From NCBI GenBank assembly GCA_003134815.1, contig PLCO01000017.1, positions 29,269 through 93,268 of the forward strand: a stretch of DNA of 64,000 nt, given 5' to 3'. Positions 5,198 to 18,945 of the stretch are shown here, one piece after another (position 1 is the first letter of the stretch; every line of letters begins with the position of its first letter). Source of the stretch: Acidobacteriaceae bacterium (GTDB lineage Bacteria > Acidobacteriota > Terriglobia > Terriglobales > Acidobacteriaceae). Made by a program: the position numbers and the translations under genes. Below the pieces are notes generated by a model. It saw only the letters and a list, made by a program, of their open reading frames with translations. It made no database searches and had not been told where the DNA came from.

Positions 5198-6184
5198 ATG
5201 AGCGATCTTGCAACCTTGGCTGAGGCCGGTGCCGTTGACCCGCTTGTCGGGCACCCGCCGGACTATCACGTGTTTCACAATTTCATTCAGCGCTGCAAGA
5301 ATCTTCCGGCAATCACGACGGCAGTAGTTTGGCCGCTGACCGAGGTGGCAATGGGCGGCGCGGTAGAAGCTGCGGCAGCGGGGCTGATTGAGCCCACGCT
5401 CATTGGACCTGAAAAGGCGATGAAGGCTTTGGCGGCAAAGATTGGCGCCAACATCAGCGCGTTCCCGATCGTGCAGGCCGAAACCGAGGCTCATGCCGCC
5501 GAAGCTGCCGTGGCCATGTGCCGAGCAGGTGATGCGCTTGCGCTGATGAAAGGCAGTCTGCACACAGACGAGTTGTTGAAGCCCGCCTTGCAGCGCGATA
5601 CCGGGCTGCGTACAGCGCGGCGCATTTCGCATGTGTTCATCATGGATACGCCGGCCTACGCGCGGACGCTGCTGATCACCGACGCGGCCATCAACATTAC
5701 GCCGGACCTTGAAGACAAGATTCACATTGTGCAGAATGCGATTGACCTGGCGATCGCGCTGGGAATTCCAGAGCCCAAAGTTGCGCTGCTTTCGGCGGTG
5801 GAGACGGTGAATCCGAAGATCCAGTCAACGCTGGACGCGGCGGCGCTATGCAAAATGGCCGATCGCGGCCAGATCACGGGCGGAATTCTCGACGGGCCGC
5901 TGGCATTCGATACCGCGGTGAGCGCAAAGGCGGCGCAGATCAAGAAACTGGTTTCGCCGGTCACGGGGCAGGCCGACATTCTGGTTGTGCCCGACCTTGA
6001 GAGCGGCAACATGCTGGCCAAGCAACTGGAATATTTAGGCGGAGCGCAACTGGCCGGTATCGTGCTGGGCGCGCGGGTGCCCACGATTCTTACCAGCCGC
6101 GCGGACTCGGCAGAGACGCGGCTGGTAAGCTGCGCCGTGGCCGTGCTGCTGCACTACGCGGCGCACCCGGCGATGAAGGTGTAG
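5198..6184 (+). CDS. Phosphate acetyl/butyryltransferase family protein
   Basis: The protein transfers an acyl group between acyl-CoA and phosphate (PF01515-type fold), feeding acyl phosphate metabolism in the cytoplasm. Signatures include 'AAGLIEPTLIGPEKAM', 'LMKGSLHTDELLKPAL', 'GILDGPLAFDTAVS' and the C-terminal 'VVPDLESGNMLAKQL'. The track ORF begins at 5012, but the ATG at 5198 is preceded by GGGAGAG and starts 'MSDLATLAEAG', so I take that start (328 aa, normal for the short acetyl/butyryl form). Acetyl versus butyryl specificity cannot be read from the sequence. The last 128 bases of the gene recur, about 91% identical, at 8408-8535, the other side of an accessory cassette. Confidence 0.9.
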   Translation: MSDLATLAEAGAVDPLVGHPPDYHVFHNFIQRCKNLPAITTAVVWPLTEVAMGGAVEAAAAGLIEPTLIGPEKAMKALAAKIGANISAFPIVQAETEAHAAEAAVAMCRAGDALALMKGSLHTDELLKPALQRDTGLRTARRISHVFIMDTPAYARTLLITDAAINITPDLEDKIHIVQNAIDLAIALGIPEPKVALLSAVETVNPKIQSTLDAAALCKMADRGQITGGILDGPLAFDTAVSAKAAQIKKLVSPVTGQADILVVPDLESGNMLAKQLEYLGGAQLAGIVLGARVPTILTSRADSAETRLVSCAVAVLLHYAAHPAMKV

Positions 6185-6186
6185 CT
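6059..6186 (+). repeat. Left copy of 128-bp direct repeat (3' end of phosphotransacetylase gene)
   Basis: Aligned by eye with 8408-8535: 128 positions, no gaps, 11 differences. Nine differences are synonymous and two change an amino acid (V to A and M to V). The longest identical block is 29 bp, beginning AGCTGCGCCGTGGCCGTGCT. This copy is the functional end of the intact gene. Confidence 0.9.
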
Positions 6187-6300
6187 CTTTCAATCGAATC
6201 CTCAGAATTGAATGGCTGTCGCCCTCTCGCGCCTCGTGCGGCCTCGTGACGTTACTAAAGGCCAATGCCTCTTCGTAACGTTCATGCGGTTGATTTTCAT

Positions 6301-6329
6301 TTGACTTCTGCGCTCGCCGGGATCATATT
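6301..6329 (+). promoter_or_regulatory. Candidate sigma-70 promoter for the accessory cassette
   Basis: TTGACT at 6301-6306 and CATATT at 6324-6329 are separated by exactly 17 bases (5/6 and 4/6 matches to consensus). It points at the 6469 gene about 130 bases downstream. An inverted repeat, CGGACAC and GTGTCCG (6401-6425, 11-base loop), lies in the presumed leader. Confidence 0.4.
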
Positions 6330-6468
6330 GTTTGTCAAATTCCCCTCGGGGTCAAACATGGGCCGAGCATCGCTGGGCTCACTGCCAATGTCCTCGCCAT
6401 CGGACACCCTCCGAGCGCGTGTCCGGTGACCTTTCGCGTGAACGATACATCGCCGAATGGAGACCCCC

Positions 6469-7068
6469 ATGATCAGACCCCTCTTGCTCGCCCCGCATGG
6501 CGCGGGGCTTCGTCTTCACGCCATCAATCCCCGCTCTTCACCCAACACCGCGTGGTTGATTCCTCTCCTGTTCCTCGTCGCATTCGCCTTCGCGATAGCG
6601 TGTTCAGCGCAAACAGGCGTAACAGTTCACAACCATGGTCCCGCGCCCATGATCGATGGCTCGGTCCATCCGGAGCAGGTACCAGACGTTGTTGCGTATC
6701 GTTTGGTTCTGCTGGGACTGTCGCAGCCCGCAAATCCGACGGATGCCCAAACGCAACGTCACCTGGCGCAGTTCCGAGCAATCGGAATGAAGGACAACGA
6801 TAACACGATGTTGATCTCGATCCTGTCTCGCTTCAGAGACGACTATCGCAGCATGATCGAGACCTACAATGCGGCCGCGACAGCCGCCAATGCCAGCGGC
6901 CAGCGAGCGGACATCAACGGATTCCTGCTGGAGCGCGATCAATTCATCCAGTCGACTCACGACCAGCTAAAGGGCGCTTTGAGCCCCGTTGGATGGGGCC
7001 GTCTCGATGCCTATGTCCAGGGCAATAAGAAGCACATGAAAATCAGCGTCGCGGAGGCAAGCCGATGA
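6469..7068 (+). CDS. Exported protein of unknown function (cassette gene 1)
   Basis: I do not recognise a characterised family. The protein has an N-terminal hydrophobic segment ('LIPLLFLVAFAFAIACSAQ') that looks like a signal peptide, then a mature part with 'DGSVHPEQVPDVVAYRLVLL' and a helical, charged C-terminal half. The track start is 6457; the ATG at 6469 has GGAG six bases upstream and is preferred, though both give an exported protein. The stop overlaps the next start (ATGA), so the two genes are translationally coupled and likely work together. It is the first gene of a four-gene cassette bounded by the duplicated phosphotransacetylase 3' end. Confidence 0.7.
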   Translation: MIRPLLLAPHGAGLRLHAINPRSSPNTAWLIPLLFLVAFAFAIACSAQTGVTVHNHGPAPMIDGSVHPEQVPDVVAYRLVLLGLSQPANPTDAQTQRHLAQFRAIGMKDNDNTMLISILSRFRDDYRSMIETYNAAATAANASGQRADINGFLLERDQFIQSTHDQLKGALSPVGWGRLDAYVQGNKKHMKISVAEASR

Positions 7069-7733
7069 AATCGAATTTGTGGCTCACGATTGCGGCCGTT
7101 GCCGTCGCCCTCCTGGCCTGCAAGGAGGCCTCGGCTCAAGGATGTTCCGTCAGCTACGATCCCAGCTTCAGCCTCTGGGAAGATGTTTCCGCGGACGCTA
7201 CCAACATCTATACGCAGGTCGGCATCGACGGATCGGGTACGATGACGGTGGAAGGCATGTGCGACCTTCCCTATATCACGCATACCGCGTACATCTGGAA
7301 CAGCGTCGGGAGTGTGGGTAATAGCTGGGTGCCTACGGGCGAATTCTGCCCGGATTGCTATGTTTCTACTGAGCAAGACGACATTGTCCCATATGATCCC
7401 GCCCAAAACTACACGTTCGACTATGAAGGGCAGATGTGGTGCAACATCGGCGGTGAGTTTTTTGATGTTTTCGGGTCGATCAAAATATCGACCACCTACG
7501 GACTCCTTCAAGGCATTATTAGCATTCCAGCAGGAAACGTCTGTGTATATGTACCGGCTTGTTCGAGCGGCACTCCTACTTGCGGCAATCCTACCGGTGA
7601 AGACTATGTCGGGGAAGGCGGAACCTGTTCTGCGTACTCGCGAGGGAGTTTCATAAGTGCCCTGGACGAGAACGGAAATAGAGAGTGCGCTGGAGTTTAT
7701 TTTCAAGCCACCGGACCGGGGCCGTGTAACTAG
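7065..7733 (+). CDS. Secreted cysteine-rich protein of unknown function (cassette gene 2)
   Basis: The ORF begins with a textbook signal peptide ('MKSNLWLTIAAVAVALLACKEASAQG') and a mature part of about 195 residues with at least ten cysteines, including 'CPDC' and a C-terminal run of spaced Cys. This suggests a disulfide-stabilised periplasmic or extracellular protein. The mature sequence is rich in Gly, Tyr, Ser and Thr and acidic overall, reminiscent of surface or adhesin-like beta proteins, but I recognise no family. It overlaps the upstream gene by four bases and is followed after 24 bases by a small membrane protein. Confidence 0.7.
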   Translation: MKSNLWLTIAAVAVALLACKEASAQGCSVSYDPSFSLWEDVSADATNIYTQVGIDGSGTMTVEGMCDLPYITHTAYIWNSVGSVGNSWVPTGEFCPDCYVSTEQDDIVPYDPAQNYTFDYEGQMWCNIGGEFFDVFGSIKISTTYGLLQGIISIPAGNVCVYVPACSSGTPTCGNPTGEDYVGEGGTCSAYSRGSFISALDENGNRECAGVYFQATGPGPCN

Positions 7734-7757
7734 GATGATGAGAAAGGAAACCGGCGG

Positions 7758-7970
7758 ATGATTTGGCTGAAGAGCTTGCTAGGCGGCGTGCTTGCGGCGG
7801 TAGTGGGAGGCTGTCTATCCTTGGTGATGATTTTCATCAAATTGCGGCGTGAGACACTGTCACGCTCAATCGGAGTGGACGTTTCGCTCCTTCGTAATCC
7901 ATTAGTTATTGTTTTCCTGGTAGGACTGTTCGTGGTTGGGTTTGCGATCTCGTTTTTTCGGCTGAAATAA
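7758..7970 (+). CDS. Small two-helix membrane protein (cassette gene 3)
   Basis: The 70-aa product has two hydrophobic helices ('LLGGVLAAVVGGCLSLVMIF' and 'PLVIVFLVGLFVVGFAISFF') joined by a basic loop ('KLRRETLSR'). AAGGA lies about nine bases before the ATG, supporting translation. The layout and the 'LLRNPLVIVFLVG' stretch resemble the next gene ('LLMRSPVIVLVLS'), so the two are probably paralogues. Function unknown; it may form a complex with the exported products upstream. Confidence 0.6.
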   Translation: MIWLKSLLGGVLAAVVGGCLSLVMIFIKLRRETLSRSIGVDVSLLRNPLVIVFLVGLFVVGFAISFFRLK

Positions 7971-8067
7971 TTCGGCTGGGCCTGCCTTCCGTTGTTTCTG
8001 GGACAGAACGCGATTGGCACCGACGAATCGAGCGTGATGAGCTGCACGAGCAACCCGTAGAGGAGAG

Positions 8068-8355
8068 ATGGTGTCCTTCATCCCACAAAACGCGTCTGGC
8101 CCCGCGGCTGGGAGCATGGCATTGCTGAAAGCCGTTGCGGGTGGGTTAGTCAGCCTGCTTTTCGCTTGGATCGTGATTGTTTCCGCTGATCTCTGGAAGG
8201 CCAAGATCATCGCTGCCAAACATGGGGCAACTGGCCTCGGTGCAGTGTCAGGGGGATGGACACTGCTCATGCGATCGCCGGTAATCGTTCTGGTGCTCTC
8301 TGCCGCGTTTGGACTCGGATTCTTCTTCATCGCCCGGCTCGCAGGCCGACACTGA
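8068..8355 (+). CDS. Small two-helix membrane protein, paralogue of the previous gene (cassette gene 4)
   Basis: Two transmembrane helices ('AVAGGLVSLLFAWIVIVSA' and 'PVIVLVLSAAFGLGFFFIA') with a longer central loop than its neighbour. The initiating codon is uncertain: ATG 8068 follows AGGAG very closely, while ATG 8116 ('MALLKAVAGG') lines up with the start of the 7758 product. Similarity to that product, order of helices and shared 'SP/NP-V-I-V' motif indicate a tandem duplication. Function unknown. Confidence 0.55.
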   Translation: MVSFIPQNASGPAAGSMALLKAVAGGLVSLLFAWIVIVSADLWKAKIIAAKHGATGLGAVSGGWTLLMRSPVIVLVLSAAFGLGFFFIARLAGRH

Positions 8356-8407
8356 GGCGAATTCCGAACGAACCGCTGCGCCACGGAGCCAAATCGGGAG
8401 CCTTCGC

Positions 8408-8535
8408 ATCGTGCTCGGCGCGCGCGCGCCGACGATTCTGACCAGCCGGGCGGACTCGGCAGAGACGCGGTTGGTGAGCTGCGCCGTGGCCGTGCTGCTG
8501 CACTATGCGGCACACCCGGCGGTGAAGGTGTAGCT
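8408..8535 (+). pseudogene. Orphan 3' fragment of a phosphotransacetylase gene (right copy of the direct repeat)
   Basis: In frame this reads 'IVLGARAPTILTSRADSAET...' to the same C-terminus and stop as the intact gene ending at 6184. Only the last 41 or so codons are present; sequence upstream (before 8408) has no further similarity. Nine of eleven differences from the intact copy are synonymous, so the fragment descends from a gene that was under selection rather than from a recent random duplication. It marks the right boundary of the accessory cassette. Confidence 0.85.
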
Positions 8536-8614
8536 GAAGCGGCAATCACTGCGGCGGTAAGGGCCACTATCATAAGGTTGGCCCATTTGGGTTCCTATTT
8601 GGCAGGAGGCCTTT

Positions 8615-10501
8615 CTGTCGATCTCCGCTGCCACATCCCCCATTGTTGCCGCCGCAGGCGGCAGCTTTCTAATCGAATCGCGCACGCCGGATGAAATCTT
8701 CACCCCTGAAGATTTGAACGAGGAGCAGCGCCAGATTGCGGCGACCGCGGAGCGTTTCGCGCGCGAGGAGATTCTGCCGCGCGTGGCGGCGATTGAGGCG
8801 AAAGAGCCGGGCGCAATGCAGGCGGTGTTGCGCAAGGCCGCCGAGTTGGGATTCACCGCGGTCGATGTTCCCGAGGAGTACGGCGGCCTGGGGATGGACA
8901 AAGTAAGCTCGACGCTCATCACGGATCACATCTCCGTACTGGCCAGCTTTTCCACGGCGTTCGGTGCGCACATCGGCATCGCGACGCTGCCGCTGGTGTG
9001 GTACGGAACTCCAGAGCAGAAGCAACGCTACCTGCCGAAACTTGCGACGTGCGAGTGGATCGGCGCGTATGGATTGTCCGAGGCCAGCTCGGGTTCAGAT
9101 GCGATGAACATTCGCACGCGCGCGGTGCTCAGTGATGACGGCGCTCATTACATTCTGAACGGCGAGAAGCAGTGGCTGACCAATGGCGGCACTGCGGGGC
9201 TTTACACTGTGTTCGCAAAAATAGACGGCGAGAAGTTTTCGGCGTTCCTCGTCGAGCGAAACACGCCGGGTCTCAGCGTGGGCGCAGAAGAACACAAGCT
9301 GGGAATTCGCGGCTCGTCGACCTGCCCGCTGGTCCTGCAGGATTGCAAAATTCCGGCTGCGAATCTGCTGGGCGAGGCAGGCAAAGGCCACCACATCGCA
9401 TTCAATGTGCTGAACGTGGGCCGCTTGAAGCTGGGAGTGGCCTGCGTGGGCGGGGCGCGGCACGCGCTGGCGCAGACGATCCGCTATGCGAAGGAGCGGC
9501 ACGCGTTTGGGAAATCGATCGTCGAGTTTGGACTGATCCAGCGGAAGATTTCGGCGGCAGCGGCGCAGCTCTATGCGGCGGAGAGCATGGTCTACCGAAC
9601 CGCCGGCTTAGTCGATGCTCGGCTGGAACGGGCTCGATTGGATGGGGCGTGGCTCGAAGGCGCGAAGCTCGAAGGCGCGAAGCCCGAAGGATTGAAGCCC
9701 GAAGAATTGATCTCAGGGCAGGGCATCGATGTTCCGCGCAGTGCCGATATTCCCAGAAGCATTGAGGAGTACGCTGTGGAGTGCTCCATTTCGAAGGTCT
9801 ACTGTTCGGAGATGCTGACGCTGGTGGCCGACGAGCAGATCGCGACGATGGGCGGATATGGCTACGTCGAGGAGTATCCGGCGGAGCGCACGTACCGCGA
9901 CGCGCGGATTAATCGCATCTTCGAGGGAACGAACGAGATCAATCGGCTGATCATTACGGGATGGATGATGAAACGCGCGATGAGCGGAAAGCTGCCGCTG
10001 CTGATGGCGATCAAGCGCGTGATGGATGAGGTGACCGAGGCGCCTGCGTTCAGCGGCGATGGCGATTCTGACGAGCCGCTCAAGCGCGAGGCCGCGGTGC
10101 TGGCGGCGGTGAAGAAGATCGCGCTGTTCGCGGCGGGCGTGGCCAGCCAGAGGTTCATGACGGGTCTCGAGGAGCAGCAGGAGATCATGGCTGACCTGGC
10201 CGACATGATTATCCAGGTGTATGCGCTGGAGTCGGCGCTGGTTCGAGCCCAGAAGATTGCTGGCGCGGGCCGTAGCTCGGCCGAGGTTGCAACGGCGATG
10301 ACGGGGTTACTGGCGGATGAAGCGATAGCGCTGGCCGAACGCGCGGCGCGGCGCGTGCTGGCTGCATGCGGCGAAGGCGACGCGCTGCAAACGCAGTTGG
10401 CTATTCTGCGCCGGCTCGCTCGGGTTGTGCCGGCCGATGTTGTTGCGCTGGGCCGCGCGGTGGCCCGTCAATGCATCGAGCTGGAGCGCTATCCTGTCTA
10501 G
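8615..10501 (+). CDS. Acyl-CoA dehydrogenase family protein, probable CTG start
   Basis: This is an FAD enzyme of fatty-acid beta-oxidation (alpha,beta-dehydrogenation of acyl-CoA). Family marks include 'VPEEYGGLGMDK', 'YGLSEASSGSDAMNIRTRA', 'NGEKQWLTNGG', 'RHAFGKSI' and 'RIFEGTNEINRLII', with the extra C-terminal helical domain of the very-long-chain type. The track starts at an internal TTG (8714), but homologous sequence ('GGSFLIESRTPDEIFTPEDL') continues upstream in frame to a CTG at 8615, placed five bases after a perfect AGGAGG. No ATG, GTG or TTG exists at a better position, so CTG initiation is likely (628 aa). Residues about 337-366 hold six 5-residue repeats that look like an insertion. 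Confidence 0.9.
   Translation: MSISAATSPIVAAAGGSFLIESRTPDEIFTPEDLNEEQRQIAATAERFAREEILPRVAAIEAKEPGAMQAVLRKAAELGFTAVDVPEEYGGLGMDKVSSTLITDHISVLASFSTAFGAHIGIATLPLVWYGTPEQKQRYLPKLATCEWIGAYGLSEASSGSDAMNIRTRAVLSDDGAHYILNGEKQWLTNGGTAGLYTVFAKIDGEKFSAFLVERNTPGLSVGAEEHKLGIRGSSTCPLVLQDCKIPAANLLGEAGKGHHIAFNVLNVGRLKLGVACVGGARHALAQTIRYAKERHAFGKSIVEFGLIQRKISAAAAQLYAAESMVYRTAGLVDARLERARLDGAWLEGAKLEGAKPEGLKPEELISGQGIDVPRSADIPRSIEEYAVECSISKVYCSEMLTLVADEQIATMGGYGYVEEYPAERTYRDARINRIFEGTNEINRLIITGWMMKRAMSGKLPLLMAIKRVMDEVTEAPAFSGDGDSDEPLKREAAVLAAVKKIALFAAGVASQRFMTGLEEQQEIMADLADMIIQVYALESALVRAQKIAGAGRSSAEVATAMTGLLADEAIALAERAARRVLAACGEGDALQTQLAILRRLARVVPADVVALGRAVARQCIELERYPV
9623..9709 (+). repeat. 15-bp tandem repeat coding for pentapeptide-like units inside the acyl-CoA dehydrogenase
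   Basis: Six consecutive 15-bp units, two of them identical (CTCGAAGGCGCGAAG), encode LERAR, LDGAW, LEGAK, LEGAK, PEGLK and PEELI. The pattern resembles the A(D/N)LxG rhythm of pentapeptide repeats and interrupts an otherwise ordinary helical part of the enzyme. Confidence 0.85.
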
Positions 10502-12456: not shown

Positions 12457-12944
12457 TAGTGGGTTGCTCCTTGTTGGCGAATTTTGGGGTCGAATTTTCT
12501 CTCTATTCCATTGTAGTGGAAGGCTTTTGGCGCTGTGCAAGCGGGCTTCGAACGTGCGGATTCAAGCGGCAAATGCCGCTACAGCGTACGATCCATTACT
12601 TTCGTACATTGTCCGAGAGAGTCTGAGTTTATCCCCCGAAAGTGCTATTCAGAAGACGTTTTTGGCGCAGACAAGCAATTTGATTTCTGCTACAAGTATC
12701 GAAGTAGCCAGAAATGTCCCGGGTTGTACAACCGGATTAGCAGTTGCCAATCGATCGGTTTTGGGGATTAAGAATGGCGTTCGTTGTTCTTCAAGCAGTT
12801 CATCCCCCAAAAGTGCTATTCAAAGGACGTTTTTGGCGCAGACAAGCGATTTGATTTCTGCTACAAGTATTGGTGTAGCCAGAAATGTACCGTGTTGAAC
12901 GACTGAAATAAAAGTTGCCGACAGATTTGCTTTGGGGATTGAGA
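12457..12944. other. Divergent intergenic region with hairpin and tandem duplication
   Basis: Nearly 490 bases between ndk and a small membrane-protein gene. It contains a perfect AGCGGCA/TGCCGCT hairpin (12564-12579) and most of a 171-bp tandem repeat. The + strand ORFs drawn through it (12329, 12535) reflect the repeat staying in frame (171 is divisible by 3) and are not credible genes. Confidence 0.6.
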
Positions 12945-12972
12945 ATGACGTTAGTTGTCTTTCAGATCGCTG
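12631..12972 (+). repeat. 171-bp tandem duplication of a gene leader and start region
   Basis: Copy 1 begins at ATCCCCCGAA (12631) and copy 2 at ATCCCCCAAA (12802), a period of 171. Shared blocks include AGTGCTATTCA, ACGTTTTTGGCGCAGACAAG, GATTTCTGCTACAAGTAT and the start context GGGGATTRAGAATG. Copy 2 ends in the real ATG of the following gene (12945); copy 1 carries the equivalent ATG but is cut off within about 30 bases by copy 2. Confidence 0.85.
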
Positions 12973-18835: not shown

Positions 18836-18945
18836 AGCAAAATCAACCACGCGCCTCAGCAAAATCAACCACGCGTCTCAGCAAAATCAACCACGCGCCT
18901 TAGCAAAATCAACCACGCGCCTCAGCAAAATCAACCCTACGCGCT
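18836..18945. repeat. 22-bp tandem repeat, five copies
   Basis: AGCAAAATCAACCACGCGCCTC recurs at 18836, 18858, 18880, 18902 and 18924 with one or two changes per copy. The last copy runs over the galE stop codon. There are no spacers, so it is a minisatellite, not a CRISPR array. Confidence 0.95.

Follow-up and report, generated by a model that had tools for sequence, protein, structure and literature searches.

A duplicated pta 3' end, best read as a recombination scar bounding a captured accessory block in an Acidobacteriaceae genome

Tyrosine-integrase islands inserted at gene 3' ends restore an intact gene and leave a duplicate of its 3' end at their far border; any site-specific element of this kind is expected to show an invariant core and, in most cases, an integrase. 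The locus described here, located behind the phosphate acetyl/butyryltransferase gene (pta) of an Acidobacteriaceae bacterium, resembled such islands by a direct repeat of a gene 3' end at both borders. Yet, no tyrosine integrase (PF00589) lay on the contigs of this locus or of the related pta loci described below, no constant core was seen, and the inserts lacked mobility genes where linkage to pta was known. Homology-facilitated illegitimate recombination (HFIR) and circularisation with single crossover, both known from laboratory work in other bacteria (PMC3240628), likewise combine one homologous and one non-homologous join without any element-encoded recombinase, and after a single crossover the gene common to both partners is also present in a second, truncated form. 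These processes were demonstrated experimentally, whereas the pta case is deduced from genomes and recurs at one gene 3' end; in addition, classical HFIR usually deletes resident DNA, while a duplicate is left at pta. Orphan Rhs-CT modules (PMC3967940) form a further parallel, with a fragment resembling a displaced 3' part lying downstream of the full-length gene and other genes in between. However, pta encodes a metabolic enzyme devoid of a variable toxin domain, its orphan consists of a bare 3' end without any obvious product of its own, and a PADLOC search of the intervening genes gave no match.

The source genome (G000) is a 4.18 Mb draft of 66 contigs, and the window, i.e. the whole stretch of DNA analysed, comprises 64 kb of one of them (G000:C35:29269-93268). 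The genus-wide comparison covered 80 genomes. Features of the locus, in window coordinates, are the following:

5198..6184, + strand: intact pta (Pfam PTA_PTB, 3e-46; NCBIfam PRK11890 and PRK08190 above cut-off)
6059..6186, + strand: first copy of the repeat, at the 3' end of intact pta (repeat comparison)
6185..6456, + strand: post-pta sequence, its first ~45 nt similar to 3' UTRs of another clade (suggestive only)
6457..7068, + strand: ORF1, 203 aa, predicted by eye to be exported (homologues in G095, 43%, and G008, 31%)
7065..7733, + strand: ORF2, 222 aa, Cys-rich, signal peptide predicted by eye (ORF1-ORF2 pair conserved in G095)
7758..7970, + strand: ORF3, 70 aa, membrane protein predicted by eye
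8068..8355, + strand: ORF4, 95 aa, membrane protein predicted by eye
8356..8407, no strand: non-homologous junction between cassette and orphan, where pta similarity stops sharply
8408..8535, + strand: orphan copy of the pta 3' end with its frame and stop preserved
8560..8713, + strand: acyl-CoA dehydrogenase upstream region, native downstream side (alignable with G061, G006, G034 and G022)
8714..10501, + strand: acyl-CoA dehydrogenase, coordinates of the called ORF (coding similarity to relatives reaches further upstream than 8714)

Recurrence of the pta 3' end, as announced in the original prediction, was reproduced by the repeat comparison: the two copies, the first of which belongs to the intact gene (stop at 6184), spanned 128 nt and matched at 117 positions (91%). 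Resemblance to pta broke off sharply upstream of 8408. This pair and one tandem repeat (12626-12964) were the only direct repeats of at least 45 nt in the window. The source genome contained two pta 3' ends, both in the window, and a genome search recovered no second full-length pta of which the fragment could be a deletion remnant. The copies differed at 11 of 126 coding nucleotides; nine differences were synonymous and the other two changed V-36 to A and M-4 to V. Under a neutral model with a synonymous fraction of 0.31, so few nonsynonymous changes (at most two among 11) had a probability of 7e-4. Since nine of the 11 differences were synonymous, the orphan diverged mostly inside a working pta and left a functional gene recently, in agreement with the earlier claim that it stems from a gene under selection. 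A tRNA was rejected as the insertion site since none occurred within the window.

From about 25 nt past the orphan stop, the sequence aligned with the dehydrogenase upstream region of the nearest relatives, which places the orphan on the native downstream side. Both 128-bp copies were about equally far from all sampled relatives, so that the coding part does not assign the 3' ends to donor or recipient, and a call based on similarity was abandoned for this reason. On the other side, the first ~45 nt after the intact pta stop resembled pta 3' UTRs of G016, G030 and G011 (the best among 65 tested) and were unlike those of the nearest relatives. This resemblance to a different clade is a hint of import on the cassette side. 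Two contigs, G076:C339 (L062) and G072:C118 (L064), ended 218 and 149 bp past the pta stop, respectively, which could reflect strain variation at the site. By eye, the dehydrogenase reading frame appeared to start upstream of the called TTG (window 8600-8713), with CTG in the window at the place where G061 has ATG and G022 has GTG after AGGAGG.

In the nearest relatives (G061, G006, G034 and G022), pta was followed by a Dps/ferritin-like gene and then by the acyl-CoA dehydrogenase; a Ferritin Pfam match was obtained for the Dps homologue in G016. Dps was missing from the window locus and kept in G011. Its absence from the window could represent a separate loss or be part of the same capture event. 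An empty site with pta running directly into the dehydrogenase had been anticipated, but no such relative was found in the genus comparison, and neither the donor arrangement nor the exact pre-insertion arrangement occurred in any genome searched. The gene after pta varied across the genus in any case, and most insertions behind it displayed no detectable orphan (e.g. G100, G093 and G096).

Between the repeats, four small ORFs were found as described initially, the first two exported and the last two membrane proteins as judged by eye, with the ORF2 start overlapping the ORF1 stop. None had a convincing Pfam, NCBIfam or PADLOC match. Homologues were searched in 78 other genomes of the genus for ORF1 (found in two, G095 and G008), ORF2 (in two, G095 and weakly G015) and ORF4 (in none). 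Judging by these three sequences, the cassette genes would be nearly private to the source genome, i.e. accessory, in line with the original description, and the relatives did not share the four genes. Plasmid searches with ORF1 and ORF2 and a phage search with ORF1 gave no match. In G095 (L105, G095:C623), the ORF1-ORF2 pair adjoined an apparent DNA methyltransferase and a Vsr-like endonuclease (by eye); from this recurrence, the pair may be a general accessory module.

New in this study is the finding of orphan pta 3' ends in four further genomes (G011, G016, G024 and G034), all retaining the pta frame and stop, two of which carry other genes between the intact and orphan copies, in line with the original prediction. 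Gene order was pta, PAS-GGDEF-EAL protein, orphan, Dps, PhoU in G011 and pta, Dps, orphan, PAS protein in G016; in both cases, what lies between the repeats belongs to the usual neighbourhood of pta. Domains in these genomes were assigned from Pfam and by homology. The G024 orphan, located on a contig other than that of pta, preceded a 540-aa ORF, HAD and hemK, the latter two being pta neighbours in G066. The G034 orphan likewise lay on a contig other than that of pta. A usual pta-downstream feature thus followed the orphan in three of five cases: the acyl-CoA dehydrogenase promoter in the window, Dps in G011 and HAD-hemK in G024. Where linkage was known, inserts between pta 3' ends measured ~0.8-3.6 kb and were free of mobility genes. 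The left ends of the five orphans were all different, at about -125 (window), -84, -69, -66 and -54 nt from the stop, and comparison of the five loci revealed no common sequence or motif before them. In G011, the intact gene ended in HPAVKV, but the orphan in HPLEQA, an ending of the type seen in functional pta of other species; both copies shared a terminator-like 3' flank. G034 displayed a pair of pta orthologues whose identity to the protein of the window was 92% and 81% (G034:C153, C159, C81); a distant pta paralogue adjoined the second orthologue, and the orphan was closest to the pta of G089. A further hit, G065:C113, was discounted because, judged by eye, it is probably the more distant pta paralogue and lies close to the start of its contig.

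Three control sequences were compared with the pta 3' end. In the 74 genomes matched by the pta N-terminus and the 75 matched by the MutL C-terminus, no orphan lay away from contig ends, and the Dps C-terminus (about 45 genomes, or 47 by another count) displayed no internal orphan, the one exception being a weak Dps-like match in G002 that contains a stop. Orphans were recorded in 4 of 71 genomes for the pta 3' end, leaving out the window genome from which the finding was chosen, and in 0 of 194 control genome-searches (Fisher p = 0.005). The pta 3' end is therefore provisionally regarded as a hot spot for orphans, a status defined against three control sequences only.

The locus is best read as a scar of recombination that brought in an accessory block, and the genus has several such scars at pta. 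In mechanistic terms, it is on balance probable that DNA of a relative carrying a pta 3' end was joined by homologous recombination on one side and by a non-homologous join on the other, the resident 3' end being displaced as the orphan. On this view, two versions of the region downstream of pta would have become fused head to tail. The incoming DNA, from a related species (~91% identical here) and bearing a pta 3' end followed by ORF1-4, would have undergone homologous recombination with the pta 3' end already in place; on its opposite side, the join (8356-8407) would have been made without homology. As a result, intact pta would run into the cassette and one 3' end would remain as an orphan before the native dehydrogenase promoter. 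In the simplest geometry, a circularised fragment with pta from -125 onward would enter the chromosome through a single crossover; one-ended HFIR would give the same product, and the same kind of event would have taken place several times at pta within the genus. The donor, the circular intermediate and the order of steps are what we infer, with single crossover of a circle, HFIR or tandem duplication with loss as candidate routes. Two features expected of a single crossover are present, namely a truncated second copy and an intact native downstream side, as is one of HFIR, with pta homology on one side and the non-homologous junction on the other. A comparison limited to pta and the pre-orphan sequence showed no clear shared bases (microhomologies at HFIR joins measure 3-10 bp). 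As to the deletion of resident DNA in HFIR, Dps is lacking in the window but retained in G011. Several points count against this best explanation: the extent of homology, 54-128 bp at ~90% identity, which is short for a RecA-dependent crossover; the equal distance of the two copies from the sampled relatives; the failure to find a donor or exact pre-insertion arrangement in the genomes searched; the usual pta neighbours between the G011 and G016 repeats; and the location of the G024 and G034 orphans on contigs other than that of pta.

The alternative that survives best, though it seems rather unlikely, is an intragenomic tandem duplication of the pta 3' end and the genes that follow, with subsequent loss of one copy of each. 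The G011 order (pta, GGDEF/EAL, orphan, Dps, PhoU), set beside that of G030 (pta, Dps, GGDEF, PhoU), is what reciprocal loss is expected to give; in G011 and G016, it could also account for the normal pta neighbours between the repeats, and the terminator-like flank shared by both G011 copies points the same way. Yet, nine synonymous differences out of 11, as seen in the window, are not what a copy that was a pseudogene from the outset should accumulate, and the foreign-type ending of the G011 orphan is at odds with a copy of the intact gene next to it.

A site-specific island, in which a recombinase either lost or acting in trans inserts cassettes at the pta 3' end and the copy carried by the element restores the gene, was the other of the two explanations offered by the original prediction and is improbable. 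It would account for repeated hits on the same gene 3' end, for the regeneration of an intact pta every time and for an orphan that keeps the native downstream side. It is disfavoured because the five left ends vary, with no sequence in common before the orphans, and because no tyrosine integrase (PF00589) was detected on the window contig, confirming the earlier statement, or on any contig that carries an orphan in G011, G016, G024 and G034; each orphan genome displayed 7-14 PF00589 matches elsewhere. Of the two initial explanations, capture by recombination is thus the one favoured. An assembly artefact fusing contigs of two strains at pta, conceivable in a draft of 66 contigs whose relatives bear MAG titles and which was presumably itself assembled from a metagenome, is very improbable, since the join at 8356-8407 lacks homology to pta upstream of -125, leaving repeat-mediated misjoining without explanatory power, and similar structures with different content occurred in several genomes.

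As at least four related species have stray pta tails too, two of them around other genes, foreign DNA seems to have entered repeatedly at the tail of this gene without an integrase. A bolder version, in which small non-autonomous cassettes would be captured at the pta 3' end as a permanent site in the genus, and DNA bounded by pta 3' ends would circulate between species as small circles that insert by crossover, with a trans-acting recombinase or none, is speculative and appears doubtful. The locus documents, in an uncultured lineage, repeated gene gain downstream of a metabolic gene in the absence of any linked integrase; the orphan offers a datable scar marking where foreign DNA joined. Should scars of this type at gene 3' ends prove general, they would make it possible to count integrase-free capture in draft genomes, where it normally goes unseen.

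Two other repeated sequences were recorded in the window. The tandem repeat at 12626-12964 consisted of two head-to-tail copies of a 168-nt unit (83% identical) and adjoined a nucleoside diphosphate kinase gene (by eye), and a tandem array of a 22-nt unit (AGCAAAATCAACCACGCGCCTC) occupied positions 18836-18945.
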